Positions 752-55,699 of a stretch of 57,291 bases of DNA are shown here, piece after piece. The first letter of the stretch is position 1. Each line of letters starts with the position of its first letter. A program made the position numbers and the translations under genes. The notes under the pieces are model-generated. The model saw nothing but the letters and a program-made list of their open reading frames with translations, did no database searches and was not told the origin of the DNA. Source of the DNA: Verrucomicrobiota bacterium (GTDB lineage: Bacteria; Verrucomicrobiota; Verrucomicrobiia; Limisphaerales; UBA9464). Location: contig JAFLEF010000050.1 in assembly GCA_017309115.1 (NCBI GenBank), positions 1 to 57,291 on the forward strand. Reading direction: 5' to 3'.

Positions 752-933
752 ATATCGGCGAACCAACGCGCCGGTTCCGTTCGTTCGGGGAAGTTTTTCT
801 CCGTGTTCCCGATCCTCGGAAACACTCCCGTGGCTAGCCCAGGCGGGGCTTTTGTGCTCCAGTCGGTCCAGCCACGCGGACTCCATCCAGTCTCAGGTCT
901 AGCGTGGCGCTGCATCTCCAACCCGATTCAGAC

Positions 934-25001: not shown

Positions 25002-25061
25002 GCTCATTCTCCTAATCTTCCTTTCAAACGGCTGCCTTCAAACGGAAATACGGGGCAATGC

Positions 25062-27428: not shown

Positions 27429-27594
27429 GGCAGGATCAGTTTGACGGACCTGCGGAAGGTGAAACTCCGGGTCCCAACTGGCAATCGAAATGATACGAGT
27501 GCGTACTAAGTGTGGAGTTCCTGATGACTTCGACGGGGCGCAGGCTTGGCAGTGGGTGGGCTTCACCGGTACTTAGCGGGAGCGTTGCGACTGC

Positions 27595-30424: not shown

Positions 30425-31900
30425 ATGTCCTCTTCGTCTGAGCAACTCGCCCTCGAACAGCTGCTGCGGTCGGTCCGTCGTCGAATCTTCTGGACCACTA
30501 CGGTCGCGACGGCAGTGAAAATCTTGGCGGTGGGATTGCCGCTGACGGCGCTCCTCATCGCGCTGGACCAGCGCTGGAATGCCGGCCTCGCCGCTCCCTA
30601 TTTGGTCCTGGGGTTGGGATTGGTGGCGGTGTTTGGGGCGGCGACGACAGGCTTTCGTGGGTTGGGGGACAAGGTGGACTTGGCCCTACGGCTGGATCGG
30701 GATGGCCAGCTCAAGGATCGGGTCAGCAGCGCGTGGGAGTTTTTGCAGCAACCTGACCTCGACGAAGTCCGTCAGGTGCAGGTTCGAGACGCCCTTCGTC
30801 GGGTGCAGTCGATTGAGCTTCCGCAGGTGTTGGCAATGCCTCGGTCCCGCCTGACCCCAGTGGTTGGAGTGGGGGCGTTGATGCTGGCGCTCAGTTTTTG
30901 GGTTCCGCCGTTGGCGACCCCGGTGGTGGCGGTGACCGCCGATGCGGTCAAGGAACTGCAATTGGAGCGACTGGCCGAATTAAAGGAGGAGTTGCAACAG
31001 CCGGAAGCGTCGCCCGAAGTGCAGGAGTTGGTAAAGCAGTTGGAGAAGATTTCGGAGCAATTTGAGCGCGGGGAGATTGGCGAACGGGAGGTGATGCTTC
31101 AATTGGGTCGGCTGGACGAAGCTTTGCGAGCTCAGGCCGCAGCGTTGGGCGTAGAGAATCTGGAGCAGGAAATGAGCACCATGGTGCCCCACTTGATGGC
31201 CAATTCGGCCACGGCGGCTTTGGCCCAGGCGCTCCAGAAGAAGCAGTTGGAGCAGGCGTCCCAGGAACTGAAGGCGCTCGAAGATAAAGTCACCGGGGAG
31301 AAGCTCTCCAAGGAGGACGCTAAGAAGCTGGCCGCTCAGCTTGGCGCCACCGCGGCTAAGCTCGGCAAAAAGAAGTCGAACGATTCCTTTTCGGGCGACC
31401 TGGCTTCGGCCTCGGAATCCTTGGAGAAGTCCGATTCTGAAGGATTTAAGTCGGCTTGCCGGAGCCTGGGTCAGAAGCTGCAGACCTTGAAGAAGTGCCA
31501 AGGAATGAAGAGCGCCTGCAACAGTCTGGGGATGTGCAAATCCTCCCTCGGTCAGTGCAGCTCGGAATCCCGCAACATCGCGTTGGGCAAGACCCCGGGT
31601 AAAGGCAAGGGCGGTAAAGGAGCAGGCACCGGAGCCTCCGGAGATCCGTTGGGCGACCCGAGCCGGCTGGCAGATGGGATGCGCAAGATGGTTCAGATTT
31701 CGGGTCAGGCAGGAGCTGGTCCGGTGGAGACGGAAACCGAGACGACCGAAGGACAGGCTTCCGCGAGCGAATTGAAGGCCCGCGAGGTGCACGCGAATTT
31801 CGCCGCGCTGGCCGAGGAAGTCATCGAGAAGGAAGACGTCCCGCTCAGCTACCGGTACCACGTGAAGCGGTATTTCCAGGCCATCCGTCCGGCCGAGTAA
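30425..31900 (+). CDS. Membrane protein with long coiled-coil domain (DUF4175-like)
   Basis: A 491-residue protein. Three hydrophobic segments at ~31-47, ~57-76 and ~146-170 are followed by a long Gln/Glu/Lys/Leu-rich region from ~178 to ~345 that reads as coiled coil. A Cys-bearing segment ('KKCQGMKSACNSLGMCKSSLGQC', near 357-378) and a Gly/Lys-rich low-complexity linker follow, then a charged C-terminal helix. The N-terminal layout resembles DUF4175 proteins that accompany MoxR/vWA operons in this phylum; that is from memory. It is the first gene of the operon and may anchor the system at the membrane. Confidence 0.7.
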   Translation: MSSSSEQLALEQLLRSVRRRIFWTTTVATAVKILAVGLPLTALLIALDQRWNAGLAAPYLVLGLGLVAVFGAATTGFRGLGDKVDLALRLDRDGQLKDRVSSAWEFLQQPDLDEVRQVQVRDALRRVQSIELPQVLAMPRSRLTPVVGVGALMLALSFWVPPLATPVVAVTADAVKELQLERLAELKEELQQPEASPEVQELVKQLEKISEQFERGEIGEREVMLQLGRLDEALRAQAAALGVENLEQEMSTMVPHLMANSATAALAQALQKKQLEQASQELKALEDKVTGEKLSKEDAKKLAAQLGATAAKLGKKKSNDSFSGDLASASESLEKSDSEGFKSACRSLGQKLQTLKKCQGMKSACNSLGMCKSSLGQCSSESRNIALGKTPGKGKGGKGAGTGASGDPLGDPSRLADGMRKMVQISGQAGAGPVETETETTEGQASASELKAREVHANFAALAEEVIEKEDVPLSYRYHVKRYFQAIRPAE

Positions 31901-32083
31901 CGACGGCTTCGATTTCGCGCTGCTCCAGATCGGGACGCCCGCGCTCTCCATGAAACGCGTCGACGGACGATTGGGTGTGTTGTGCCCGCTTCCTGCGTTT
32001 CGTTTCTCCCTTTCCCCTGCGGCCAGTCGTCGTGCCGGCCGCGCTCACCTTCTGTTGGGTCATTTTGCGCCAGCCTTCCATCC
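31901..32083. other. Gap inside the MoxR operon
   Basis: 183 bases between the coiled-coil gene and the MoxR gene. No gene, terminator or clear promoter seen; an in-frame run upstream of 32084 is not MoxR-like. Confidence 0.4.
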
Positions 32084-33085
32084 ATGAGTACCGGATCCGA
32101 GTTTGAACAGAATGCCGTCCAGTTCGGCGAAGCCTTCCGCCGCCTGCACGACGAAATCTCCAAAGTCATTGTCGGACACCGAACCCTGGTCGAGGAGGTT
32201 CTCTCCGGCCTCTTCGCCGGTGGACATGTCCTGCTCGAAGGCGTGCCGGGCATCGGCAAGACGATGCTGGTCAGCACGCTTGCCAACGCCTTGGACTGTC
32301 ATTTTGCCCGCATTCAATTCACGCCCGACCTGATGCCGAGCGACATCATTGGCACCCGGGTCGTGGTTGAGGACGAACGGGGGCAGAAGCACTTCAGCTT
32401 CCAGAAGGGTCCGGTTTTCACGCAGATCCTGCTGGCCGATGAAATCAACCGGGCCACGCCCAAGACTCAATCGGCCCTGCTGGAGGCGATGCAGGAGAAG
32501 AGTGTGACGGTGGCCGGTCAGAAGATGCAGCTGCCCCCACCGTTCTTTGTGTTGGGCACCCAGAATCCGCTGGAGATGGAGGGGACCTATCCGCTGCCCG
32601 AAGCCCAGTTGGACCGGTTTCTGTTCAAGCTGGTGGTCACCTTTCCCACCCTGGAGGACCTGATCGAAGTGTCCCGGCGAACCACCCGACGAGACCTGCC
32701 TCACGCCGGGAAAGTGCTCCGCGGCGATGAAGTCGTGCGCCATATGGGAACCGTCCGGGATGTCCCGATTGCGCCGCACGTGGAATCCTATGCCGCGCGA
32801 CTGCTGCTGGCGACGCATCCGGGCACGACGCAGGAGACGCCGAAGGTGAAGCAGTATGTGAAGTATGGCGCCAGTCCTCGCGGGCTTCAGGCGCTGGTGC
32901 TCGGGGCCAAGGTTCGGGCGCTCTTGGATGGCCGGTTCAATGTGAGTTTGGAAGACCTGCAACAAGTGGCCAAACCAGCGCTGCGCCATCGGCTGATCCT
33001 CAACTTCGAAGGTGAGGCCGAAGAGGTGAAGACCGACGACATTATCAGTGAAATCCTGGAGCGGACCCCGGCGGATGTCCGGTAG
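32084..33085 (+). CDS. MoxR-family AAA+ ATPase
   Basis: A 333-residue ATPase. Walker A 'GVPGIGKT' at 53-60, Walker B 'LLADEINRA' near 116, sensor 1 'GTQNP' with Asn161, and the usual 'EGTYPLPEAQLDRF' and 'GASPRGLQALVLGAKVRALLDGR' regions. MoxR ATPases act as chaperones that insert metals or remodel partner proteins, usually with vWA proteins. Here DUF58 and two vWA genes follow immediately. The ATG at 32084 matches the family start; the in-frame extension to 31982 does not. Confidence 0.95.
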   Translation: MSTGSEFEQNAVQFGEAFRRLHDEISKVIVGHRTLVEEVLSGLFAGGHVLLEGVPGIGKTMLVSTLANALDCHFARIQFTPDLMPSDIIGTRVVVEDERGQKHFSFQKGPVFTQILLADEINRATPKTQSALLEAMQEKSVTVAGQKMQLPPPFFVLGTQNPLEMEGTYPLPEAQLDRFLFKLVVTFPTLEDLIEVSRRTTRRDLPHAGKVLRGDEVVRHMGTVRDVPIAPHVESYAARLLLATHPGTTQETPKVKQYVKYGASPRGLQALVLGAKVRALLDGRFNVSLEDLQQVAKPALRHRLILNFEGEAEEVKTDDIISEILERTPADVR

Positions 33086-33109
33086 GCGAAGGTGGCCCGA
33101 CTAACCCCG

Positions 33110-34036
33110 ATGAGCCTCCCGCCGTCAGCATCCCTCCCGGCCGACGACCGGCAGGCGCCGGTCTTCGGCGAGGATTTCCTGTCGACGCTGGAGTATTTGC
33201 ACATCGTGGCACGCAAGATTCTCAGCGGCCAGATGAAGGCCGAGCGCCGGAGCCGGACCAAAGGGGTGAGCGTGGAGTTTGCCGATCATCGGCCGTATTC
33301 CCCCGGCGACGATTTCCGGTTCATCGACTGGTCGATCTTCCTGCGGACGGATCAGTTGTTCCTGAAGCTGTTCGAAGAGGAGGAGGACCTGCATATTTAC
33401 CTCCTCCTGGATGTCTCGGGATCGTCCGACTTCGGAGTGCCCTACAAGTGGCATTACCTCCGCCGGTTGACCGCGGCGATCGGCTATCTGGGTTTGGCGA
33501 GTCTGGATCGGGTGTTTGTGATTCCGATTGGGACCAGCCTGCCGAAGGGGGCGGCGCAGCAGGTGGCGTTGCGCGGCAAGGGAAAGGTGTTCCGACTGCT
33601 GTCGTTTCTGGAGGGCTTGAAGGCGTCGGGGCCAACTCAGCTCGGTTCCTGCCTGAAGACCTTTGCTGGTAGCTCGCGCAAGCGCGGACTCGCGGTGGTG
33701 CTCAGCGATTTCTACGACCCAACCGCGTTGGCCGGTCTGAACGCGTTGCGGTACCAGAAGTTTGAAGTGTTCTGCGTCCAGGTGGTCTCGCCGCAGGAAA
33801 CCAACCCAGAACTGCTGGGAGATCTGCGACTGCTGGACGCGGAGACGGGACGCTGGCGGGAGGTCACGCTGACTGAGTCACTGCTGCGGCGGTATCGGGA
33901 AGCGTACGACACGTGGATCAACACCCTCGAAAACACCTGCCGCAAAAATGGGGTGGGCTATGTCCGCGCCCGGACGGATCAGCCGTTCTCGGATACGGTC
34001 GTTACGATGCTGCGCCGGAAAAAATTCCTCCAATGA
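33110..34036 (+). CDS. DUF58 domain protein
   Basis: A 308-residue soluble protein. The DUF58 core is visible as 'RRSRTKGVSVEFADHRPYSPGDDFRFIDWSIFLRTDQLFLKLFEEEEDLHIYLLLDVSGSS'-like order of blocks: 'GVSVEFADHRPYSPGDDFR' (residues ~55-73), 'FIDWSIFLRTDQLFLKLFEE' and the vWA-like 'LLLDVSGSS', with a metal-site-like DxSxS. Nearly all MoxR operons carry such a gene; DUF58 proteins are thought to be partners or substrates of MoxR. A GTG at 33092 and the ATG at 33110 are both possible; the ATG is preferred because the first residues before it are weakly conserved. GAAGG lies about 17 bases upstream of the ATG. Confidence 0.9.
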   Translation: MSLPPSASLPADDRQAPVFGEDFLSTLEYLHIVARKILSGQMKAERRSRTKGVSVEFADHRPYSPGDDFRFIDWSIFLRTDQLFLKLFEEEEDLHIYLLLDVSGSSDFGVPYKWHYLRRLTAAIGYLGLASLDRVFVIPIGTSLPKGAAQQVALRGKGKVFRLLSFLEGLKASGPTQLGSCLKTFAGSSRKRGLAVVLSDFYDPTALAGLNALRYQKFEVFCVQVVSPQETNPELLGDLRLLDAETGRWREVTLTESLLRRYREAYDTWINTLENTCRKNGVGYVRARTDQPFSDTVVTMLRRKKFLQ

Positions 34037-34081
34037 CGTCTCCTCGCTGGAACCCCACCTAACCCCGACGAAGACCCGCGC

Positions 34082-35950
34082 TTGTCCTTCGGAGCTCCCA
34101 TCTTCCTGTCGCTGCTGGCCCTCGCGGTGCCAATCGTCTTGCTGTACCTGCTCAAGCAGCGGCGGCGTCGGGTCGAGGTTTCGACCCTGATGTTTTGGGA
34201 TCAGATCCTGCAGGATCAGCCGTCGGTCACCTCCTTCACGCAGCTGCGCAAACTGCTCTCCCTGCTGTTGCAGTTGCTGTTCCTGCTGCTGGTGACCTTG
34301 GCCCTCGCCCGACCGGTCTTGTCGAATCGGCTGACCGGAGCGCGGCGGGTGGTGCTCCTGGTCGACACCTCGGCATCCATGGGAGTGCGCGAAGGGAAAC
34401 AAACCCGCTTTGAGCTCGCGCGGGAGCGGGCCCGGGACGTGATTCGCGGGCTGTCGATGGGTGACACCTGTTTGCTGATGTCCGTGGGTGCGGAGGCGGA
34501 TTTGGTGCATCCCTTCACGGATTCGAAGAAGGAACTGTTGGAGGCGTTGGATGGACTGAAGTTGAGCCACTCGGGAACGGACTTTAGGAAGGCCTGGCAA
34601 CGGGTGGAGCAATTGCCGCCCGACGAACGGGAGACGCAGGTGTACCTGATTACCGATGGCGCCTTTGACCCGATTGACATCGTGCCGCCGCCCCGAACGC
34701 AGTTCGCCTATCGGCCGGTGGGCACACGGTCGGACAACGTCGGCATTACGGCGTTTAGCGTTCGTCCGTTGCCGTCGTCGCCGCGGGATTTTCAAGCTCA
34801 CCTGGAACTGTTCAACGATTCGGAAGAGGAGCGTGTCATTCCTGTGGAGCTGCGAATTGGAGGTCGCCTGGCCGAGGCGTTTGAGTTTCGTGTGCCGGCA
34901 GGACAGGCGGTGACCCGGACGCTGCGTCAGTTCAGTGCCGAGGGCGGAGAGGTGGAAGTGTTTGCCGACGTTCCGGACGCGTTCCCGTTGGACAACCGGG
35001 CGTACGGGGTCTTGCCACCGCCCAGTCCAATCCGGGTGCGTTTGGTCACTCCGGAAAGTCCCTTCCTCGAACGCGCCCTGGCGACGGATGATGATCTACA
35101 ATTGGAGGTCATCACTCCGGACAAATTCCCGGCGGCGACCGACGCGACCGTGACCGTGTTTGCCGGATGTCGGCCAACCCGTACGCCGCTGGGTGCGGTG
35201 ATCTTCATTGGAGACTGGCCGGAGGATCTGGGATTGGCGCGCCAAGGTGAAGTGGCCAAACCACTGTTTACGGAATGGCAGCGGGATCATCCGGTGAATC
35301 GGCATCTGGCCCTCCAGAACGTCGGCATCGAAAAGGCCCTGTCCGCGCAACCCGGACGGGACTGGCAGCGGCTGGCCTCCAGTGTGACTGATCCCCTCGT
35401 TCTGTTGCGCGAGGAGTCCACCAACAAAGTGCTCGTGATCACCTTCGACCCCCAGGGTTCGGATCTGCCGCTGCGGGTGGCCTTCCCGATCCTGATCGGA
35501 AACTCCGTGCGTTATTTGGCACGAGCCGACACGTCGGAACGCTGGGTGAATCCGGCGATGGGCCAGGTCCTCTCTCCGCCGGAAGTGATGGGGTATCTGA
35601 CCTCGGCGCAGCGCGAAGCGGGAAAAACGTTGGATGCCGTGGTGACCCCGGAAGGCGGACCGGTTTCGCTGAAGACGGCTCCCGGACTGGTGCCGGTGGA
35701 GCGCGCGGGTCTCTACCGGGGAGTTTCTGCGGACGGCACGACCAACGTGCTGTTCGCGGCGAATCTGGCGGACCGACGGGAAAGCCGGCTGGCGCCTTCA
35801 GTGGAATTGCCCCTTCGCTCGAAGACTCCGCTCGTGGAGATCCAGGAACGGTTCCGGCTGGGATTTGAACCCTGGATGATCCTCGCGTCCTTGGCGGTGT
35901 TGGTGAGCGTGGTCGAGTGGATTCTGTTTCATCGGCGGCTGATCGAATGA
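34082..35950 (+). CDS. BatA-like membrane vWA protein
   Basis: A 622-residue protein starting at TTG, since the BatA N-terminal domain begins there ('SFGAPIFLSLLALAVPIVLLYLLKQRRRR'). A second helix near 58-78 precedes a vWA domain whose metal-site motif is 'DTSASMG' with Asp95, Ser97 and Ser99. A long external middle (residues ~190-590) carries beta-rich segments, and a C-terminal helix at ~596-613 ('WMILASLAVLVSVVEWILF') returns to the membrane. BatA-family proteins work with MoxR in envelope stress tolerance. Its stop codon overlaps the next start (ATGA). Confidence 0.9.
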   Translation: MSFGAPIFLSLLALAVPIVLLYLLKQRRRRVEVSTLMFWDQILQDQPSVTSFTQLRKLLSLLLQLLFLLLVTLALARPVLSNRLTGARRVVLLVDTSASMGVREGKQTRFELARERARDVIRGLSMGDTCLLMSVGAEADLVHPFTDSKKELLEALDGLKLSHSGTDFRKAWQRVEQLPPDERETQVYLITDGAFDPIDIVPPPRTQFAYRPVGTRSDNVGITAFSVRPLPSSPRDFQAHLELFNDSEEERVIPVELRIGGRLAEAFEFRVPAGQAVTRTLRQFSAEGGEVEVFADVPDAFPLDNRAYGVLPPPSPIRVRLVTPESPFLERALATDDDLQLEVITPDKFPAATDATVTVFAGCRPTRTPLGAVIFIGDWPEDLGLARQGEVAKPLFTEWQRDHPVNRHLALQNVGIEKALSAQPGRDWQRLASSVTDPLVLLREESTNKVLVITFDPQGSDLPLRVAFPILIGNSVRYLARADTSERWVNPAMGQVLSPPEVMGYLTSAQREAGKTLDAVVTPEGGPVSLKTAPGLVPVERAGLYRGVSADGTTNVLFAANLADRRESRLAPSVELPLRSKTPLVEIQERFRLGFEPWMILASLAVLVSVVEWILFHRRLIE

Positions 35951-38556
35951 TGAACTTCTCGCTCGAACATCCCGGGTTCCTGGCCCTGCTGGTGGCGATT
36001 CCTGTCGTGATTGGCGTGCTGCGGTACACGCTGGCGGATTCGCCGAAGGCTCAGTTGGCGCTATCGGCGGCGACGCGGTCGGTGATCCTGTTGCTGCTGG
36101 TACTGGCGCTGGCGTCGTTGCTGTGGGTGTCGCATTCGCAGCGGGTTTCCGTGCTGGTGTTGGGCGATGTTTCCGATTCGGTGCCGAAGAGTGCGCCGGG
36201 CCAGTTGAGCAATTGGTGGCGACAGGTCAGCGGTTCGGTTCCCGAGCACACGCGCGTGGGGTTGACCACCTTCGCGGTGACGAATCAGGAACTGGTCCGA
36301 CTGGGCGGGGATCCGAAAACGGTGGGCGAGGCGCCTCGACATGGTTCCGCCGGCGAGACCGATGTGGAGCGAGCGTTTCTCACTGCGGCGCAGTCCATGC
36401 CGACCGACACACTCAACCGATTGCTGGTGGTCAGCGATGGCAACGAGACGGTCGGGGACGCTTTGGCGGCGGCGCGCCGGGCCTCGGCGCATGGTTGGAA
36501 GGTGTATGCCGCGGCCTACACCAACGAGGTGCGGGACGAGGTCTTGCTGGAGGATTTGGTGGTACCAAGCGAGGTGAAGAAGGGTGCGAGCTTCGGAGTT
36601 TCGGCAATTGCTCAGGCCAGTGCCGCGACCCGGGCGCAGTTCACGTTGTATCGAGACGGCTTCAAGATTCAGGAGAAGGAAGTCGATCTGGTCGCGGGAG
36701 CCAACACGCTGACCTTCCAGGAAACCCGGGCGAAGGAAGGTCTGGTGAAGTACGAGCTGCGGATGAAGGCGGCCCGGGATTTCTTCGCCGACAACAATGT
36801 CGCCTCGGGCTTGGTGAGTGTGGCCGGAGAACCTCGCGTGCTGTTGCTGGAAGGCGTCGAACGGGACGGCCGGTTTCTCGCCCGCGCCTTGGAGGCGGAA
36901 AACATTCGTGTGGAGGTCCGCGAGGGGAAGGGCATGCCGGGAAGTCTGGAGGAACTGGCCGCGTACGATGCGGTGATTCTTTCGGATGTTCCGGCGACCG
37001 ACCTGCGACTCGCGCAGATGAATCTGCTCCGGTCCTACGTGGAGGATCTCGGCGGCGGATTTATCATGATTGGTGGTCAGAATTCCTTCGGTCTGGGTGG
37101 CTACTACCGGACGCCGGTTGAGGAGGCCCTGCCGGTCAAGATGCGGTCCGAGAAGAAGAAGGACACGCCCGGACTCGCCATGATGCTAGTGATCGACAAG
37201 TCGGGCTCGATGTCGGGCGACAAAATTCAACTGGCCAAGGAAGCAGCCATCGCGGCGGTGGAGCTGATGTCGGATCGGGATTACGTCGGAGTCATTGCGT
37301 TCGACAGCGAACCGTATGTGGTTTCCGAACTGCAACCCGCGTCGAACAAGGGCGGCATTGTCGCGGCGATTGAGCGTATCGAAGAAGGTGGAGGAACCGC
37401 GATGTACGAGCCGATGGTGCAGGCGCATCAGCAGCTGCAGCAGGTCACGGCGGCCCTGAAACACTGCATCGTTCTGACCGATGGCGTTTCGCAGCCGGGG
37501 GACTTTCAAGGCATCACGCAGTCCATGCAGTTGGATCAGATCACGGTGAGTTCCGTGGGGATTGGTCAGGGCGATGGCGACATTGATGCCGAGGTGCTGC
37601 AAAACATTGCCCGCTGGGGAAAGGGGCGGTTCTACCAGACGAGCGATCCGCACGATGTTCCGCAGATCTTCACCAAGGAAACCATGACCGCCAGCAAGTC
37701 GTCGTTGGTGGAGGAACCCTTCCTTCCCCAAGTACTGCGGAATGATCAGGTGGTCCGGGGCATCGACTGGAACAACGCGCCGTTCCTGTTCGGCTATGTG
37801 GTCACGGTACCCAAGCCCACTGCGGGGGTGCCGTTGCTGACCGAGCGAGGTGATCCGCTGCTGGTGAGTTGGCGATTTGGCTTGGGTAAGTCCGCGGCCT
37901 TCATGAGTGACGCCAAGAGCAAGTGGGCGGCGGACTGGGTGCGGTGGGCCGGGTACGGACAATTCTGGGCGCAACTGGTGCGGGACGTGATGCGCACCAC
38001 GCAGCATCGCGGGGCGGAGACGACCCTGAGCGTCCGGGGTGGCGAAGGGCATTTGCGCGTCGATGCCACGGATGAGAGCGGGGTGTTTCGGAATGGGCTG
38101 ACGACTTCAGCCCAGTTGGTGAAGCCGGACTTGTCGCTGATGCCGCTCGCTCTGCGCCAGACCGCTCCGGGCCGGTATGAAGCCACCTTTCCGATGCCGG
38201 AGACCGGAAGCTACTTGTTCAAGATCCGGCAAACCCGCCCGGGACCGGGGACCGAACCTGAAGTGGTGAACGACTACACCCGGGCCATGACGGTCAGCTA
38301 CAAACCGGAGTACCGTCATCTGTCCCTCAACGAACCGTTTTTGCGGTCCCTAGCCGAGAGCACCGGCGGCGCGTTTCAACCCAGTGCCGATGATCTGTTC
38401 CGGGTAGCCGCCGGAGAGCAGGTGGCCGTTCGCAAACGACTTTGGCCCTGGCTGCTGACCGCAGCGCTGCTCCTGTTTGTGGTGGATGTGGCCCTCCGCC
38501 GGCTCGATCTCGCAGGCCGGGGACTGTTCCGCGACGAGGCCCAACGCTACGGCTGA
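35947..38556 (+). CDS. Large membrane protein with two vWA domains
   Basis: An 869-residue protein. N-terminal helices at ~10-28 and ~44-61 are followed by a first vWA-like domain with 'DVSDS' (Asp74, Ser76, Ser78), a beta-rich region, a glutamine amidotransferase-like segment ('YDAVILSDVPATDLRLAQMNLLRSYVEDLGGGFIMIGG' in blocks, ~340-380) and a second, canonical vWA domain with 'DKSGSMSG' (Asp417, Ser419, Ser421). A final helix near 830-848 precedes a short basic tail. This is the vWA/GATase-like architecture frequently found with BatA in planctomycetes and Verrucomicrobiota. The ATG at 35947 overlaps the stop of the BatA gene. Confidence 0.88.
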   Translation: MMNFSLEHPGFLALLVAIPVVIGVLRYTLADSPKAQLALSAATRSVILLLLVLALASLLWVSHSQRVSVLVLGDVSDSVPKSAPGQLSNWWRQVSGSVPEHTRVGLTTFAVTNQELVRLGGDPKTVGEAPRHGSAGETDVERAFLTAAQSMPTDTLNRLLVVSDGNETVGDALAAARRASAHGWKVYAAAYTNEVRDEVLLEDLVVPSEVKKGASFGVSAIAQASAATRAQFTLYRDGFKIQEKEVDLVAGANTLTFQETRAKEGLVKYELRMKAARDFFADNNVASGLVSVAGEPRVLLLEGVERDGRFLARALEAENIRVEVREGKGMPGSLEELAAYDAVILSDVPATDLRLAQMNLLRSYVEDLGGGFIMIGGQNSFGLGGYYRTPVEEALPVKMRSEKKKDTPGLAMMLVIDKSGSMSGDKIQLAKEAAIAAVELMSDRDYVGVIAFDSEPYVVSELQPASNKGGIVAAIERIEEGGGTAMYEPMVQAHQQLQQVTAALKHCIVLTDGVSQPGDFQGITQSMQLDQITVSSVGIGQGDGDIDAEVLQNIARWGKGRFYQTSDPHDVPQIFTKETMTASKSSLVEEPFLPQVLRNDQVVRGIDWNNAPFLFGYVVTVPKPTAGVPLLTERGDPLLVSWRFGLGKSAAFMSDAKSKWAADWVRWAGYGQFWAQLVRDVMRTTQHRGAETTLSVRGGEGHLRVDATDESGVFRNGLTTSAQLVKPDLSLMPLALRQTAPGRYEATFPMPETGSYLFKIRQTRPGPGTEPEVVNDYTRAMTVSYKPEYRHLSLNEPFLRSLAESTGGAFQPSADDLFRVAAGEQVAVRKRLWPWLLTAALLLFVVDVALRRLDLAGRGLFRDEAQRYG

Positions 38557-38611
38557 TTTCCCTTTTCATTCTGATCCCACTCCACGCCCTTCAGGGGCAC
38601 TCAACCTCGCC

Positions 38612-41600: not shown

Positions 41601-44600
41601 TCCGTCCGCAGTTGATCACTTTCATGGCGAACGTCGCCCAGCAGAGCATTGGCGAGGATGCCCTGGTCGAGCAGTTCACCGAACGGGCCCGCAAGGCGGG
41701 CGCGGGCAGCGAAGCCCAGCGGGATCTCGTCCAGATCCTGCAGTTGTACAATCGGATTCCCGAGGCGTTGAAGGTGTCTCAGGAACTCCTGGCACGTTAC
41801 CCCAAGGATCCGGATCTGCTGCAGCAGGTGGCCCTTTTCTATCAGAGCCAGCAGCAGTTGGATCAGGCGATTCCGCTGATGGAGCGTTTGGCGGAGGCCC
41901 AGCCGAAGCAACGGACCCAGGCCTTGCAGGGGCTGGTTCCCCTGTACTTCCAGAACAAGCAGGAGGAGAAGGCTCTGGCCTTGGTGGATCAGCTCCTGAA
42001 GGATAATCCCAAGGACATTTCCACGGTCTTTGCGATGGGGAACTTCCTGCAGCAGCAGGGCAAACGGGACCGGGCGCGCGCGGTTTACACCAATGCCCTC
42101 GAGCTCGATCCGAACCTGCGACCCAATCTGCTGTCTGCGCTGGCGCAAATGGAGCTGCAGGACAACCAGCCGGCGGCGGCCCGGGCGCTCTATTTGGAGA
42201 TGCTCAAGAGCCCCAATCCCTCGGCCAGCCGAGTGTCCTTGGTGAGCGGTCAGCGACAGGTGCCACTGTACGTTCCCCAGATCGCGAGGGCCGGCCAGCA
42301 ACCCATGATGATGATCGGGGGGATTGGAATGCGACGCGCTCCGCAGAATGTCTTCGGGTACATGGATTACATGCGGCAAAACGCGTTGGGCCAGTTGAAG
42401 GCTCTGGAGAAGCGTCCCGATGCCGACACCAACGCAATGGGTTTTGTGCAGGTACTCGAGACAGTGGCCCGCGGCTACACCAACGCCGTCAGTGCCACGG
42501 CCCGGGCGCAGGCGTGGGACACCGCCAAATTCCTGATCGCGTATCAACTTTCCGAGAAGCAGGAAGATCAGGCGGCGAGCCTGCTGCAGAGCTTTCGGCA
42601 GGCCGGCTACCAAGGCGTGGATTGGTTCAACATTGCGCTCTACCTCGCGGAACAAAAAGAGGACCTCGCCGGCATGGTTCAACTGTACGATCAGGTTCTG
42701 CAGCTCTATCCGGCCAAGTCCCGGGAGGTCGCGCAGGCCAAGGCCATTACCCTGGTCAAAGCCAAGGACTACGACGGCGCGGCCAAAGTGATCCGGGACA
42801 TGAATCAGCAACGGGTCCCTCCCGCGCAGATTCTTACCATGATTAGCGCGGTGCGCCGGGCGGGGGAGAAGAAGCTGGCCCGGGAACTACTGGAGGAACA
42901 TCTGGCCGGAGCCAGTCGCAATCCGGCGGCGTTGCAGGAACTGGCGCAGCTCTACGGCGAGGAGAACGAGTTCGCCAAGGCCATCGCGCTGGGCAATGAA
43001 GCGTGGGATCGCAAGGCTCACGGCCGTTCCTCGCAGAATTACTTCTACGGACCGGGAACCTACTTTGGCGGGATCGGAGGCATCAGCGGAGCCGACACCT
43101 TGCTGTCGGATCTGTTTCGGTACTACGTCGCCGAGGGGCGCAGTGATGAAATTATAGGCCAGTTCAAGCAACGATTGGAGAAGCAGCCCAGTTCCATCGC
43201 GGCGCATGAGAATCTCGCGCAGTTGTATCGGCTGGCGGACAACCGGAAGGCGGCGTTGGAGCTGTATCAAGAGCTGGCCACCAAACGACCGCACCTCGTT
43301 CAGGTTCGTCAGAACATCGCCAACCTGTACGTCGAGATGGGCGATACCAAGCGGGCGACGGAGTACTTCGAGGACCTGATCAAGGCCAACCCGCTTTCCT
43401 ATCAGCAATTTCAATGGGAACTGCGGTACCTCTACCAACGCATGGGCAAAGGGAAGGAATTGGCCCAGATGGAGGAGCGGCTCGTCGACAAGGCGCGGGA
43501 TCCGAATCAAATCCGGGAGGTCGCCGACCGGCTAAAGGAGGAGGGTGAGTATGAAAAGGCCGCCGAGATGTATCGAAAGGCCATTAAGATGTCGCCGGGC
43601 GATCCGTGGGTGCGCAATCAACTCGCTGACGTCTTCGTCAATCTGGGCAAGTACGACGAGGCGGTGACCCTCTACAAGGAATGGCTGGATTCTCCCCAGA
43701 TGCGCAGTCAGCCCTGGGTGGATCATCAGGCGATGATGCGGTTGGCGGCACTCTTCCGCGCGACCGGCCGGATCGAGGAACTGAAGGAGCGCGCCGCCAC
43801 AGCGCTGAAGAATAATCCCAGCGATCTGACCGGGTTGGGGTTGCAGATTCATCTCGCCTTACTGGACAAACGCATCGCTGATGCAATCGCGGGATACAAG
43901 GCTCTTCAGGAAGCAGGCCGGGATCCCAACGGGATGTGGCAGCTCATGGATTTGGCAGCGATCACGGGCGACTATGGTCCGATTCTGGCGACCTTGGAGA
44001 AGGCCGATCCGGGCAGCCTCGATCAATCTCAACTGGCCCGGTTTTATGCTTCCCAGGGCGACCTGAAGAAGGCGGAGACCCTGGTGTTTGAGAACGTGGA
44101 GCGACAGATGGGGAATGGGAACGGCGGCTGGGTGGTGCGGCAAAGCATCGAGTTGTTGGCAGCCCTCGACAACTGGGAGGCGGCGGAGCGGTTGGTGCGC
44201 AAGTTTCGGGAACAGGGCGTCCAGGAATGGGAACGCCGGGAAATCGACAACGAAATCGCCGAGAACTATGTCCAGCGAAACCAGTTCGGTTCCGTGGTTG
44301 AGGACATTCTGAAGAAAGACTCCTTCAAGGGCCGCGATCTGGATCTCTTGAAGTCGATTCTGGAGCGGTACCAGTGGCAGTCGCAGCCGGAACGTCGCCT
44401 GGAGTTTCTCGAACGAATCTGTCGAGCCGATCCCAAGAACCGGGAACTTCAGTACGCCTTGGCGACCGCCTACGACGACGCGCTCCAAGGTGACCGGAAA
44501 CTCGCCATCTTGGAACGGTTGGTGGCGGAGGAACCGGCCAACCTCAACTACCGGGAGCAATTGGCGAACTGCCTGATCCGGGTGGGTCGGCCCTCCGACG

Positions 44601-47455
44601 GGGTGAATGGGTTCCGCCAATGGGTGGATGAGAAACCGTTGGAGCAGCGCTGGGTCACCTACTCCCGGGTGCTCCAGCAGGCGGGTCGGTTGGCGGAGTC
44701 GCGAGCCGCTTTGGTCAAGGCGGAGGAACTGGCGGATCCCTCGCGCAAAGACGACCTCCACTTGCAGTTGACGGCCTTTGATTCCGCGTGGGGCCGGGCT
44801 GCCGAGCGCAAGGCGGCGTTACGGGCGACGTTCGAAACCAAGAAGGACCAGGGCAGCTTTCAGGAGTATTTGTCCTTCCTGGATGAGCAGGGCTATCCCG
44901 GGGAGGCGCATGCCTTCTTCGTGGCCAACAAAGAGGGAGGTTATCTCGAACAGTATCAGGGAAACGCTCCGTTCAACCTGTGCTTCAATGCCAGCGACTA
45001 CCAAACCCCGCTGGATGTGTCGTGGCGCTTCACTCGCTATGGTGAACGCTGGAACCGGAACAACTACTTCGAAACGACCAGCCGCCTGTTTTCGGATCGG
45101 GGCAAATCCCCGCTGTTGGCGGCCGATCTGGACGTCCGACTCAACGCCGAGACCAATTCCAACTCGCTGATGCAACAGAAGCGGGCGGAGGCGTGGTTGA
45201 CCGCCGGGGAGTCGGCCAAGGCCCTGGCCATCTACGAAGAGTTGGCCAAAGCCCAGCCGTTCGACCGATCTCTCCGCTCCGCTCGCTCCCGCCTTTTGGT
45301 CCGACTCGGTCGCGAGGCTGAAGCGCTGGAGTTACTGCGGGACTTCCGCGGCGCCCTCAGTCTGCGGGAGGAAGTGGCCGCCCGCTTTGAGCTCATGGAA
45401 ATGCTCGTGCAGTTGAACCGGGCCGACGAAGCGCAGAAGGAGTTGGACTCGTTGCTCGCCTGGTCGAAGGGGGGCGAAACGTTGGAACGGGCGGGTGATC
45501 TCCAGCGGATGATGAAAAACTGGGGTCGGGCGGCCGAGTTCTATGAGGCGTCACGCAAGGCGGTGCGCGGCTACAACGACGCCTCCATCCGCGTTCGTCT
45601 GGGGCAGTGCTATGCGAAGACGGATCGCCCGAAAGAGGCCCTGAAGACGTGGGCCGAATTGGAAGTGGGAGTGAGTTCCGACCGAGCCTACCTGACGTCG
45701 CCGCTGGTGAACTGGCTTTTGTCGGAAGGAATGGCGCCGTTGGCCATCCAGTTTGGGGAATTGCGCGCCGCTCAGAATTCCAACGCGCCCAACGCGTATC
45801 TGCTTCAAGCTCGCGGACACCTTGCCCTGGGTCAGACCAACGAGGCGTTCGCCGCCCTTGGGCGCGGTACTGCAGCCTTGCCGGAATCACAACAGGATTC
45901 CTGGAGTCAGCAAATGGGTCGGCTCCTGGTGGATCACCAGTTGGCGGAGGCCGCTTGGGGACAGTATCTGGCGCAGCCGAATCCGGTGCTGGCCGGGGCG
46001 CTCATCTATTCCACGCCCCGTCTCCGGAACGATCGCCGATTCGCGGAGCACTCGAAGAATCTGGCCCAACTGGCTCCGGAAAAGCCCAAGGATCAACTGA
46101 GCCTGGGTCGGGCGCTGCTGGAACTGAAGGATCCGGAGGCGGCCGCGACCCAGTTCCGCCGCGCTTTGAAATCGCCGCAACCGGCGGATCAGCGGGAGGC
46201 AATCAAAGGTTTGGCCGAGGCCGGGCAGGCTTCTGCGGCGACCGCAGAAGTCCTCACGCTGCTCCAGCGTCAGCCGCAGTGGTTTGTCGAGGACCCTTCG
46301 TTGATGGTCGCTGCGGCCAAGACCCGAGACACGGCGGTGGTGGAAGCGCTGAAGCCGATTCTGACAGCGGCGCAGATCAGCGAATCGCAAGGACAGGCGT
46401 GGGAGTTCCTGGTGGAGTTTCATCGGGGGCAGACCAACGGCGCTGCGGCCAAGTTGGCGGCGCTGGCGGCGGCTCCGGACCTCACCGCGGCGCAATTGGA
46501 CGCGCTGGCCAAGCTGAGTCTGGAAGCGGGCTTCACTGGCGAACGCATCCTGATGTTGCAGCGGATGGCCGAGCCCGGTCGTTCCAGTTCGCGACGGCAA
46601 CCCGCCCTCGCCGAGCTCGTGAAGGCGCAGGCGGCTCAGCGTGATTATCAAGCCGCCCTGACGGCTCTGGCCCAGCTGATCAATGTGTGGGGCCAGGAAT
46701 ACTGCGTGGAAGCCCGGGAGACCTTGGCGCAGTCGGTGACAGCCGAGACCTGGCCGAAGTTCCAGGAAGCTGTCATTGCGGTAGGTCGGGTCCACGCCAC
46801 GAATGATGTCGTTTCCGGTCTGATTGGATTCGGCGCGCAGGTGGGTGCGCGGGTGGGGCAGGAGGTATCGGCCGGCGCGCTTGCCGAGAAGGCGGGACTG
46901 CAGGGTTTGGAATTGGAAGAGGCCCAGGCGTGGGACCAGTTGATTGAACAGTGGGAAGTTACCGGGCCCTTTGCCACCGGACCGGCGCGGAATGAGACCC
47001 AGTATGACTACACCAACGATGGTCAATCGATCGCCCGGAACGCGCCGCGTCCGCTGGCGCCCGAGTTCGGGCCGCAGACGGTCTGGCGGCCCACCGATCC
47101 CCGCCGGGAGTTGGGCGCGATTCAGTTGGCCCAGCTCTTGGGTCTGCAGGTGGCGGACACCGCGGGTCAGTTCGCCTTTGCGCGGACGACGCTGATCTCG
47201 CCGGACGACCGGGTGGTCAATCTGGCGCTGGGGTCCGACGACACGGTGGAAGTCTGGGTCAACGGACAACAGGTACACGCATCCGCGGTGCCGCGGTCCC
47301 TGCGGCCCGATCAGGACCGATTCGACGTTCGTCTCCGTAAGGGTGACAACGAAGTGTTGCTGCGGATTGGCAACAACACGGACTCCTGGGCGTATTGCCT
47401 GCGCGTCCTGTCGGGCCGGGACGGACTGACCCTGGCGCAAGCTCCGAAGAAGTGA
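38612..47455 (+). CDS. Giant exported TPR protein (2947 residues)
   Basis: A signal peptide ('LLLSIVLVLLLGRVAGQ') is followed by dozens of TPR-like helix pairs: typical units end in 'AYRKMLDTAKEDS', 'ALELDPNLRPNLLSALAQME' or 'LYKEWLDSPQ', with Ala/Gly/Tyr/Leu at expected positions. Three inserted loops are Gly/Tyr/Met-rich, near residues 972-990, 1230-1250 and 1475-1495. From ~2780 there is a beta-rich domain ('WEVTGPFATGPARN', 'VVNLALGSDDTVEVWVNGQQVH', 'GDNEVLLRIGNNTDSW') that looks like a carbohydrate-binding type domain common in this phylum. It follows the second vWA gene by 55 bases and would be a periplasmic or surface scaffold. No frameshift is visible over 8.8 kb. The ATG at 38612 fits the signal; the in-frame extension to 38477 overlaps the upstream gene. 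Confidence 0.85.
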   Translation: MKSLLLSIVLVLLLGRVAGQDGAPDAARELETRNRYETVLLKNPFQERAFNSVYEGYGRVEGVDAWVAKLLPSSKEGEGRAAALLLLGQIYDRQFKTADALTALEQAGQLGESRPQFQVLLGTLYYKAGKDEAAAKLLGQALDSLTDLDQRAAVSRLLGNLYLRQGKRDEAVAVWKRITEQNPGEAFAQLELAEIYEDNRMWDQAIEVYRSVATEAKDDPYRQCRALRSIGQCQVQAEKFKEAIATYEQALGLVAPGNWLFEDLKLRLVGVYEDIGDLEGLKKYVEARLQQNAGDGEFRDLLAETLIRLGQFDAAEQQYREMLERSPRSGHVHEKLIALYQRTSKREAVVASYEKLIELFPTDPDYLRRLGEFYLRENQPDKAKETWRRLAKGTPSAEALGTLAGWFESFEFPDEAIQTYQQALALKPNGDWTDRQAALRFQKGEEAEAVRLWLSLATPDSSVEDLANVAAILESNGRLDESLSLRQQAVTKEPGNLEQQLALGKSLLRKQKFTEAAATFELLASQNTNEFLTLQGEQGRLDAWRELGVLEEKQKALEDDLNAHPTDAAKLGQLARFYERSGQREKAVELYEVRRAKEPDNLDYLRALAPLYESTKQVESALTAYQTLLEKDKSRARVYQQNLLDLYLAADQKDESIRAAEALVSLAPGDPEIRLTLAQVYLTYRLPEKALTEFRTALRLEPNEPEYYRRYGEVLESEKRYGEAQEAYRKMLDTAKEDSTRIAAVGALTRIHTLQDRLNDLVAEFQRRIRNTPKKLAAYEELAVIYRESGQVSRGVEVLESGLNSVDDKNAALRALIRASFEAQDFPKVKSYFEQLVAASGKPTANEFERLGQIYAQLGEIEKARQTWMRIVSESPKDAKAHDRLAQILRDAGLTDEAIAMKGRAVELDPTDLKRRFDFSQLLAQSEQPVEAIKQLNLILELGAAEPPPEESTSEKKVKSVNRGQTSPVSSAQFMYGLSAYRGGYYGGGWQGTFRQFRPQLITFMANVAQQSIGEDALVEQFTERARKAGAGSEAQRDLVQILQLYNRIPEALKVSQELLARYPKDPDLLQQVALFYQSQQQLDQAIPLMERLAEAQPKQRTQALQGLVPLYFQNKQEEKALALVDQLLKDNPKDISTVFAMGNFLQQQGKRDRARAVYTNALELDPNLRPNLLSALAQMELQDNQPAAARALYLEMLKSPNPSASRVSLVSGQRQVPLYVPQIARAGQQPMMMIGGIGMRRAPQNVFGYMDYMRQNALGQLKALEKRPDADTNAMGFVQVLETVARGYTNAVSATARAQAWDTAKFLIAYQLSEKQEDQAASLLQSFRQAGYQGVDWFNIALYLAEQKEDLAGMVQLYDQVLQLYPAKSREVAQAKAITLVKAKDYDGAAKVIRDMNQQRVPPAQILTMISAVRRAGEKKLARELLEEHLAGASRNPAALQELAQLYGEENEFAKAIALGNEAWDRKAHGRSSQNYFYGPGTYFGGIGGISGADTLLSDLFRYYVAEGRSDEIIGQFKQRLEKQPSSIAAHENLAQLYRLADNRKAALELYQELATKRPHLVQVRQNIANLYVEMGDTKRATEYFEDLIKANPLSYQQFQWELRYLYQRMGKGKELAQMEERLVDKARDPNQIREVADRLKEEGEYEKAAEMYRKAIKMSPGDPWVRNQLADVFVNLGKYDEAVTLYKEWLDSPQMRSQPWVDHQAMMRLAALFRATGRIEELKERAATALKNNPSDLTGLGLQIHLALLDKRIADAIAGYKALQEAGRDPNGMWQLMDLAAITGDYGPILATLEKADPGSLDQSQLARFYASQGDLKKAETLVFENVERQMGNGNGGWVVRQSIELLAALDNWEAAERLVRKFREQGVQEWERREIDNEIAENYVQRNQFGSVVEDILKKDSFKGRDLDLLKSILERYQWQSQPERRLEFLERICRADPKNRELQYALATAYDDALQGDRKLAILERLVAEEPANLNYREQLANCLIRVGRPSDGVNGFRQWVDEKPLEQRWVTYSRVLQQAGRLAESRAALVKAEELADPSRKDDLHLQLTAFDSAWGRAAERKAALRATFETKKDQGSFQEYLSFLDEQGYPGEAHAFFVANKEGGYLEQYQGNAPFNLCFNASDYQTPLDVSWRFTRYGERWNRNNYFETTSRLFSDRGKSPLLAADLDVRLNAETNSNSLMQQKRAEAWLTAGESAKALAIYEELAKAQPFDRSLRSARSRLLVRLGREAEALELLRDFRGALSLREEVAARFELMEMLVQLNRADEAQKELDSLLAWSKGGETLERAGDLQRMMKNWGRAAEFYEASRKAVRGYNDASIRVRLGQCYAKTDRPKEALKTWAELEVGVSSDRAYLTSPLVNWLLSEGMAPLAIQFGELRAAQNSNAPNAYLLQARGHLALGQTNEAFAALGRGTAALPESQQDSWSQQMGRLLVDHQLAEAAWGQYLAQPNPVLAGALIYSTPRLRNDRRFAEHSKNLAQLAPEKPKDQLSLGRALLELKDPEAAATQFRRALKSPQPADQREAIKGLAEAGQASAATAEVLTLLQRQPQWFVEDPSLMVAAAKTRDTAVVEALKPILTAAQISESQGQAWEFLVEFHRGQTNGAAAKLAALAAAPDLTAAQLDALAKLSLEAGFTGERILMLQRMAEPGRSSSRRQPALAELVKAQAAQRDYQAALTALAQLINVWGQEYCVEARETLAQSVTAETWPKFQEAVIAVGRVHATNDVVSGLIGFGAQVGARVGQEVSAGALAEKAGLQGLELEEAQAWDQLIEQWEVTGPFATGPARNETQYDYTNDGQSIARNAPRPLAPEFGPQTVWRPTDPRRELGAIQLAQLLGLQVADTAGQFAFARTTLISPDDRVVNLALGSDDTVEVWVNGQQVHASAVPRSLRPDQDRFDVRLRKGDNEVLLRIGNNTDSWAYCLRVLSGRDGLTLAQAPKK

Positions 47456-47461
47456 GGGGTG

Positions 47462-47483
47462 ATCCGCAGATTCACGCAGATTT
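47462..47483. repeat. 'CGCAGATT' repeat, single arm
   Basis: It resembles one arm of the element at 8592-8744 (ATCCGCAGATTCACGCAGAT). It lies a few bases after the TPR stop, between two genes of the same operon. Confidence 0.7.
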
Positions 47484-47557
47484 CAGGGGGAAGGGGAATC
47501 CAGCCTTGTCGTTCTTCAGGAAGTTTGTTTCGTTCGGGACGGAAGGAGAATCCGGAC

Positions 47558-47857
47558 ATGATTCACGCCTTACTTTCTGTGGCGGCGACGACGGTGGATC
47601 CAGTGCAATTGGAGAATGCCGTTCACGGGGCGCTGATGCGCGAGCAGGGAATGTTTCTGACCCGGGTGGAGCAGGCTCAACAGAACTTGGCGACGGCCTG
47701 GTTCGAAGTGACGCCGGCGCTGGGCACCACGGCTGTGTTGGCCTTGGTACTGTTCGCCACGGCGTATCTACTGCGGCCCGTACCAGCCATCATCCTGCCG
47801 GCTGTTGGTGCCTTTGGCGTACCTACGCGACGCAAACGCAAGGTGCGGGCCACCTGA
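47558..47857 (+). CDS. Small membrane protein at the end of the TPR operon
   Basis: A 99-residue protein of unknown function: a short charged helix ('VDPVQLENAVHGALMREQGMFLTRVEQAQ'), a hydrophobic segment at ~55-85 that may form one or two membrane helices, and a basic C-terminus ('RRKRKVRAT'). The ATG at 47558 has GGAGA about nine bases upstream. It lies 102 bases after the TPR gene and is followed by a hairpin, so it is probably the last gene of the operon. In-frame codons back to 47459 cross the repeat and are not considered coding. Confidence 0.6.
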   Translation: MIHALLSVAATTVDPVQLENAVHGALMREQGMFLTRVEQAQQNLATAWFEVTPALGTTAVLALVLFATAYLLRPVPAIILPAVGAFGVPTRRKRKVRAT

Positions 47858-50547: not shown

Positions 50548-50559
50548 AACCCTGGCTTT

Positions 50560-53001: not shown

Positions 53002-53194
53002 AGACCCAGGCGAGAAGCATGGCAACGGACGTAAGACCAACCAATCACGACGAAGGACGCCTGTTGGACGACGCCAACGATTTCCGGCTTCGACTATTGG
53101 GTTGGGCTTGGCGTCCTCAGCCCGGCTCGCTCGGTCGTCGAAACCCCGTAGTGCCCTTGCAGGACCGGCCGAACCACGACCTTCACCCACCACT

Positions 53195-55624
<2,430 letters not shown>

Positions 55625-55699
55625 AGAATTGTCGCTCCTCCAACTTCGGCGTCTGTCCGACCCTAACTACATTCCTCGTTCAAACTTCCGCCATCGGCC

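Follow-up and report, generated by a model that had tools for sequence, protein, structure and literature searches.

A giant, putatively exported TPR protein gene associated with a MoxR, DUF58 and vWA gene set in Verrucomicrobiota

A giant tetratricopeptide repeat (TPR) gene ends a run of six same-strand genes, 30425-47455 (+), in a 57,291-nucleotide stretch of DNA, called the window throughout, from a Verrucomicrobiota bacterium of the order Limisphaerales (GenBank assembly GCA_017309115.1, contig JAFLEF010000050.1). In order, the genes encode a membrane protein of an unnamed family, a MoxR-type AAA+ ATPase, a DUF58 protein, two von Willebrand factor A (vWA) proteins, vWA1 and vWA2, and the TPR protein; the first is called COIL, a working name that implies no coiled coil. 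On comparison of genomes across the phylum, we regard this gene set as almost certainly real and conserved, and the TPR gene is, judging from its distribution, no chance neighbour. With about as much confidence as doubt, we propose that the set encodes a MoxR-driven, envelope-spanning assembly machine in which the giant TPR solenoid is a dedicated subunit or client.

Results

Co-occurrence of the TPR gene with its neighbours

An earlier note on this DNA had named neighbours not conserved with the TPR gene as the finding that would speak against its operon. This was put to the test by searching 288 genomes of the phylum twice; to judge from the genome handles listed, the two samples appear to be identical. 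A COIL profile of 14 rows (A5) matched 23 genomes at E <= 1e-8, and a TPR profile of 25 rows (A8) matched 20 at E <= 1e-40, in 25 places with frames of 2,044-3,882 residues. The COIL scores were split by a gap: 16 genomes scored E <= 3.1e-81, and no other match was better than E 1.7e-34. The 16 are called strong-COIL genomes, a cut made after the scores were seen. All 16 carried the TPR family, adjacent in 15; in the exception, G575, COIL and the TPR gene are on separate contigs, and the TPR frame there is cut by the contig end. Among the 272 genomes without strong COIL, a TPR match was found in 4 (G554, G514, G484 and G531), which gives a Fisher p of 7e-23, a value that overstates independence, the genomes being related. 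Counting any COIL match, 19 of 23 genomes had a TPR match, the exceptions being G422, G496, G301 and G494; conversely, a COIL match was present in 19 of the 20 genomes with TPR, all but G531. Six of the strong-COIL genomes (G491, G575, G426, G566, G447 and G303) had contributed a sequence to neither profile, and all six had the TPR family, five of them adjacent (Fisher p 3e-10); they represent three families, and G491 is in the same genus as a seed.

When all searches were pooled, as a union and no random sample, 27 genomes, the window's and 26 others, had a family TPR gene as the immediate same-strand neighbour of COIL or vWA2. The TPR gene lay downstream of vWA2 in 10 (the window's genome G000, G200, G077, G070, G342, G428, G750, G761, G686 and G674) and upstream of COIL in 17 (G363, G537, G487, G793, G345, G603, G799, G735, G347, G613, G508, G456, G491, G426, G566, G447 and G303), with two giants in tandem once in each order, downstream in G674 and upstream in G347. 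The core of five genes was complete in 24 of the 27; G426 ends after COIL and G347 within vWA1. The TPR frames spanned 2,104-3,882 residues in 25 of 27 genomes, lengths that are counted from the first possible start codon and may therefore overshoot by as much as about 170 residues. The gap at the TPR-core junction was at most 60 bases in 17 of the 23 measured on first-start-codon frames, and five junctions were 4-base overlaps. These two gene orders, together with the co-occurrence in strong-COIL genomes, show that the neighbours are conserved with the TPR gene.

Pairwise distances for the core (here MoxR, DUF58, vWA1 and vWA2) and for the TPR N-terminus were correlated over 23 genomes (r = 0.966; 0 of 2,000 permutations as high), much of which is expected from ordinary vertical descent. 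The two trees had 17 of 20 splits in common, and COIL distances followed those of the TPR N-terminus with r = 0.925 over 22 genomes. Gene order was mapped on the core tree with G735 added. Every member of the window's clade but G735 has the downstream order, and G674 is alone downstream among upstream genomes; parsimony requires at least three moves of the TPR gene, none of which took it away from the operon in these genomes. The core and TPR genes were thus not exchanged separately.

Smaller profiles were also run; like the co-occurrence searches above and the search of the order with vWA2 below, these large searches scored only 3-5 candidates per genome, so that misses are possible. A four-sequence COIL profile matched 14 of 387 phylum genomes at E <= 1e-6. 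A six-sequence profile of the TPR N-terminus matched 20 of 286 class genomes at E <= 1e-50, in 24 places with open frames of 1,700-3,743 residues, except for one fragment of 325. Among the 20 non-seed TPR places of this class search, 14 stood beside core genes, that of G086 beside a decayed copy.

Layout of the locus

Successive genes of the window's set are separated by 183, 24, 45, -4 and 55 bases, the start of vWA2, as read from the sequence, overlapping the vWA1 stop by 4 bases (Table 1). Open reading frames (ORFs) and Pfam agree with the earlier note in placing an operon with MoxR, DUF58, two vWA proteins and a TPR gene here. Terminator-like sites across the stretch stood at the shuffle level, 19 against 16.3 (standard deviation 3.5). 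The small membrane protein that the earlier note had added at 47459-47857 did not hold up as a member: from 47559 on, the fetched loci gave no match except the window's own DNA, and because of this lack of a match in other loci the ORF is not tied to the conserved set and was dropped.

Table 1. Features of the gene set in the window
Feature	Position	Strand	Size and basis
COIL	30425..31900	+	491 aa, inner-membrane protein; ORF, hydropathy, alignments
MoxR AAA+ ATPase	32084..33085	+	333 aa; ATG 32084; Pfam AAA_3 211.7 bits, PDB 2r44 E 5.2e-78
DUF58	33110..34036	+	about 308 aa; probable ATG 33110, GTG 33092 possible; Pfam DUF58 113.1 bits
vWA1	34082..35950	+	Pfam BatA 54.6 bits, VWA_2 62.8 bits
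vWA2	35947..38556	+	vWA and GATase1_like; ATG 35947; Pfam, motifs, hydropathy
Giant TPR protein, predicted exported	38612..47455	+	2,947 aa; ATG 38612; at least 28 recognisable TPR-like units
Signal-like hydrophobic N-terminus of TPR protein (MKSLLLSIVLVLLLGRVAGQ)	38612..38671	+	hydropathy and by eye
Conserved N-terminal TPR module (RYETVLLKNPFQERAF, GNWLFEDLKLRLVGVYEDIGDLEGL in the window)	38702..40621	+	alignment of 25 segments
C-terminal domain of TPR protein	46943..47452	+	about 170 residues; common to the G200 giant and other proteins of the order

The giant TPR protein

The giant TPR gene is real and coding, and no chance frame. It runs for 2,947 codons without a stop from its ATG, and it is read as coding because its codon-position GC content (0.673/0.414/0.776) is like that of the neighbouring genes and because G200 holds a co-linear homologue of 2,941 residues (38% identity over 2,959 alignment columns). 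Identity between the two is 62% at residues 201-400 and 22-26% at residues 2201-2800. An iterated repeat model found at least 28 TPR-like units above 3 bits. By hydropathy, the window's protein has no second transmembrane (TM)-like segment beyond the N-terminal signal-like one, and 26 of the 27 family members likewise lack a further segment, the check on the 27th, G456, being spoiled by a misplaced motif. The ORF, the TPR matches and the signal-like N-terminus, the last from hydropathy only, are thus consistent with the exported 2,947-residue TPR protein of the earlier note.

The N-terminal module, about the first 640 residues after the signal, was aligned in 25 segments. Distant modules are 17-23% identical to that of the window, with two invariant columns only, and the recurring motifs are Y..xLxKRPxxGxxFDRFxxxWL followed by GSWLxRE...RIxxxFRxxxDLxGL. 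Beyond the module, length and sequence diverge across the family. Other TPR proteins in the PDB also match the TPR profile, at up to E 1.5e-40 for natural proteins and far more strongly for engineered ones, so that the score alone is no proof of membership; family membership is therefore claimed from adjacency, coverage and the N-terminal motif. Lone frames of about 2,030-2,100 residues may represent a separate TPR branch. Nine further loci (L137, L146, L148, L154, L155, L162, L181, L182 and L183) hold TPR genes of about 2.0-3.7 thousand residues with an N-terminal profile match, and no core genes lay beside the TPR gene in the stretches read there.

At the other end, a terminal domain was confirmed, but not the beta fold that the earlier note had given it. 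The window and G200 have a C-terminal domain in common, with a shared GSDDxVxVWVNG-like motif; neither Pfam nor the PDB sequences gave this domain a name. The last 318 residues of the window's protein had matches at E <= 1e-3 in 49 of 59 genomes, own included, mostly through this domain. The giants of G342 and G735 end in other stretches that look beta-like by eye. Ten C-terminal pieces of 950 residues were compared with TPR families; those of the window, G342, G735, G363 and G792 matched at E < 0.01, G508 matched at 0.018, and four gave no match.

The MoxR, DUF58 and vWA core

The MoxR protein carries Walker A (GVPGIGKT) and Walker B (ILLADE) motifs. DUF58 has the metal ion-dependent adhesion site (MIDAS) motif DVSGS and no TM-like segment. 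The vWA1 protein has TM-like segments at residues 6-24, 58-76 and 593-611, with a MIDAS motif, DTSAS, in a vWA part predicted to be periplasmic. Two vWA regions (MIDAS DVSDS and DKSGS) and GATase1_like segments make up vWA2, with two N-terminal TM-like segments and one at the C-terminus. By hydropathy and the positive-inside rule, on which all topology here depends, vWA1 and vWA2 would each have two N-terminal TM segments, the vWA part outside and one C-terminal TM segment; COIL would have its N-terminus inside, three TM segments and an arm outside; MoxR and DUF58, without TM segments, would be cytoplasmic, and the TPR protein exported. The periplasmic prediction agrees with experiment on Borrelia BB0173, a protein with a predicted aerotolerance-regulator domain whose vWA part is in the periplasm (PMC5700661; papers are cited throughout for the portions of text available to us).

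Across genomes, the Walker A pattern is kept in 23 of 23, as are DxSxS in vWA1 (23/23) and two such patterns in vWA2 (23/23). No vWA2 relative was found in viral contigs with two peptide patterns, or in plasmids at E <= 1e-60. In G301 (L165:10124-19999), an ORF of more than 3,290 residues, cut by the stretch and carrying CarboxypepD_reg-type domains, lies upstream of MoxR, DUF58 and vWA1.

The COIL membrane protein

Hydropathy places TM-like segments of COIL at residues 27-45, 55-73 and 143-161, followed by an arm of about 330 residues that is predicted, with the positive-inside rule, to lie outside the cytoplasm. Close forms end in a conserved (I/V)PLSxRxHVKRYFxxIRP. The window's COIL matched no Pfam or NCBIfam family at E 0.001, none of 14 members scanned had a convincing one, and neither COIL nor the TPR C-terminal domain gave a usable family or PDB match. 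The earlier note had expected a coiled coil in this protein, and a crude heptad Fourier test went against it, shuffles scoring as high in 370 of 500 cases for residues 174-300, 444 of 500 for 174-350, 66 of 500 for 300-360 and 179 of 500 for 440-491. The coiled coil, unsupported by this periodicity test, was set aside.

Relatives within the order

The window's vWA2 was searched against 294 genomes of its order, and 200 matched at E <= 1e-40; beyond the closest, those listed were 32-39% identical. All six genes stand in the window's order in G200. In G077 they do so with a TPR frame of 1,683 residues that lacks the C-terminal part, and no later TPR match above 60 bits follows that frame. The set of G177 is cut by a contig end. 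COIL matched at E <= 1e-3 in 3 of 59 genomes drawn from the window's own, its genus, family and order: the window, G054 (E 1e-10, with three internal stops) and G011 (E 6e-4). Decayed pieces in different frames, with large parts missing, were seen of TPR and vWA2 in G086 (C104; L164/L185), and of COIL, DUF58 and vWA1 in G054 (C45; L121/L186).

The window's genome holds a second, diverged set at G000:C21:9642-35368 (L120, L085), with a COIL-like protein of 646 residues, DUF58, vWA1 and vWA2 scattered along one contig among unrelated genes. No giant TPR match was found in C21:1-55000, and the vWA2 of this second set shares 37% identity with that of the window and belongs to the type that is frequent in the order. 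A scan of named genomes by two peptide patterns, which has little power for distant forms, gave three true relatives and one weak vWA match in a Bacteroidetes metagenome-assembled genome (MAG); the records named were UBA3939, a 'Verrucomicrobia subdivision 3' MAG (Limisphaerales in the NCBI taxonomy), a Verrucomicrobiia MAG and an uncultured Verrucomicrobia MAG.

Other genes in the window

Four MacB/FtsX-type permease genes stand in a row downstream of the operon (48094-57193). Elsewhere in the window are a gene like those of non-ribosomal peptide synthetases, with AMP-binding, PP-binding, condensation and thioesterase domains (904-5190), and two adjacent PQQ/BamB-type beta-propeller genes on the minus strand (23340-27566).

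Discussion

Our best guess from these comparisons is the one that the earlier note had suggested, in which MoxR powers a large scaffold or assembly machine of the envelope. Several observations weigh against it or against the association on which it builds. No promoter-like site was found across the stretch, where shuffles gave 2.3. Six of the 20 non-seed TPR places of the class search lie away from the core (G780, G537:C6, G487:C3, G793:C8, G792 and G728), and all six genomes have a COIL match elsewhere. COIL and MoxR are adjacent in G575 and in G554 with no DUF58 or vWA match following in the stretch read, the TPR gene of G554 being on another contig. In G301 a weak COIL relative accompanies MoxR, DUF58 and vWA1, and the long upstream ORF is not TPR in the part scanned. 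In G686 only vWA2 adjoins the TPR gene, with the COIL match on another contig. Shorter TPR frames with the core kept, 666 residues in G070 and 1,683 in G077, speak for plastic length; the former may be truncated, since its end lies 153 bases from a contig end. By pattern, Walker B was found in 18 of 23 genomes and the DUF58 MIDAS in 19 of 23 (not G342, G428, G750 and G761). Within the order, the close form was found, besides the window's own genome, only in G077, G177 and G200 among the 294 (71%, 66% and 58% vWA2 identity), COIL had no match at E <= 1e-3 in four same-genus genomes, and the decayed copies in G086 and G054 suggest that the operon was lost within the order, unless they reflect faulty assembly. 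Given this rarity, the lack of COIL in same-genus relatives and the decayed pieces, the gene set is dispensable within the order.

Bat (Bacteroides aerotolerance) TPR proteins are far smaller than the window's, and if the set were a Bat operon acting as a periplasmic stress complex, a small BatC/BatE protein would have to have grown long, which we consider unlikely. Like the Bat operons of Bacteroides, Leptospira, Borrelia and Riemerella (make-up from PMC3557215, PMC5700661 and PMC11834572), the window combines MoxR, DUF58 and an inner-membrane BatA-type vWA protein with a TPR partner, and its vWA part is predicted to face the periplasm, as shown for BB0173 (PMC5700661). Yet no BatD match and no small TPR protein (BatC/BatE) were found in the window's six genes, the TPR protein there having 2,947 residues of which 1-963 score 29.2 bits on BatC_Lepto (cut-off 175), and neither the COIL family nor the double-vWA/GATase-like protein is named as a Bat part in the available text of the papers cited. 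The Bat comparison made in the earlier note therefore stands for a related core and fails for membership. Moreover, Bat-like sets sit beside giant-TPR sets: in G750 (L166), a MoxR-DUF58-BatA-BatB/TPR set follows the giant TPR gene at a distance of about 3 kb, with one ORF of 407 residues between, and G200 (L073:343-2323) has a second MoxR-DUF58 pair directly downstream of its giant. As these two genomes carry both, the two kinds of set exist side by side.

Another reading, which we also find unlikely, makes the giant TPR protein the client to be folded: its very size would call for a dedicated chaperone of export and folding, made up of MoxR, DUF58 and the vWA proteins, with no scaffold role for the core. 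There is usually one giant per core, adjacent and co-inherited, and MoxR proteins are regarded as having chaperone-like roles in the maturation of specific complexes (PMC3893208). Family giants without an adjacent core (G487:C3, G537:C6 and G793:C8) argue against it, although their genomes also hold a core. So do G070 and G077, which keep the core with a shorter TPR protein. A surface-polymer role, in which a PrsT/PelB/BcsC-like TPR protein would export or attach exopolysaccharide, seems very unlikely. PrsT, PgaA, BcsC and PelB place a long TPR solenoid outside the cytoplasm, as predicted here, and we know of no MoxR/DUF58/vWA core with them. Residues 1-963 of the TPR protein reach 224.7 bits on TIGR02917 (PrsT), and the window and G200 have a C-terminal non-TPR domain; the XrtA/PEP-CTERM PrsT cut-off of 312.2 bits is not reached by these residues, the TPR similarity is generic, and Pfam scans of the window's set matched no glycosyltransferase family.

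Least probable of all, in our judgement hardly worth holding, is a MoxR-vWA ternary conflict (defence) system. Such systems pair a MoxR-vWA chaperone with a third large protein, as the window does, and the window's MoxR exceeds the cut-off of PF20030 bpMoxR (38.6 bits against 27). AAA_3 is matched far better, at 211.7 bits, and the window's large partner, unlike theirs, is predicted to be exported. The third components described are VMAP, iSTAND, FtsH and beta-propeller proteins (PMC7159879, available text). In Pfam scans of the window's set, no VMAP, iSTAND, FtsH, beta-propeller or effector family was matched, and PADLOC gave two weak generic matches only, the TPR protein being scanned for residues 1-963.

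The operon that we regard as nearest in kind, RL3499-RL3502 of Rhizobium leguminosarum, consists of MoxR, DUF58 and two large membrane proteins, and we know of no giant TPR gene in it; the likeness is one of description. It is an operon of the MRP-type MoxR proteins, with a role in envelope integrity and cell shape (PMC3893208; title cited in PMC5118466), and its MoxR protein RL3499 matters both for an intact membrane and for the form of the cell (PMC3893208).

Returning to the MoxR-driven envelope machine, sequence analysis establishes the gene set, its conservation, the kept motor and metal-site motifs and the signal-like TPR end; from these we infer complex formation, the direction of action, the location of the TPR protein and its scaffold or client role. 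A device that spans the inner membrane, is driven by ATP and has the TPR solenoid as its partner on the outer side would be the simplest arrangement to find a use for each component. The MoxR AAA+ ring would work in the cytoplasm with DUF58 as a vWA-type adaptor on the inner face. Remodelling driven by ATP may then be relayed across the inner membrane by vWA1, vWA2 and COIL, the last with three TM segments, its N-terminus inside and its arm outside. In the periplasm, the vWA/GATase-like domains and the COIL arm would hold or assemble the giant TPR solenoid, which may act there or at the cell surface, with envelope complexes assembled or maintained on it. The N-terminal module of the TPR protein could be the constant docking part, and the length and C-terminal domain of the protein, which vary by lineage, could set reach and target. 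Estimated from the usual TPR geometry, a solenoid with as many as about 80 helix pairs could exceed the width of the periplasm, and it may therefore run parallel to the membrane or extend to the cell surface.

In searches of the open-access literature, including the available text of PMC12283558, no description of the gene set was found, subscription papers lying mostly outside this scope. Giant ORFs are described in Omnitrophota (PMC10066038), where the available main text contains none of the words TPR, tetratricopeptide and MoxR. Seen across the phylum, the evidence is evenly poised for a machine undescribed to date, in which four proteins in the membrane or on its inner side, among them one of an unnamed family, would join an AAA+ motor to assemble or drive, as the working part, a TPR solenoid of up to about 3,900 residues at the surface or in the periplasm. 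What MoxR proteins act on is mostly unclear (PMC3893208, available text), and MRP-type MoxR/DUF58/vWA operons are widespread. A gene association that survives repeated rearrangement points to a MoxR partner here, the giant TPR protein together with the unnamed membrane family. The question of MoxR clients would thereby become concrete and be narrowed to a handful of candidates, and this in a phylum in which little is known of the cell envelope; proteins of 2,000-3,900 residues that are otherwise read only as 'TPR' would gain a context.

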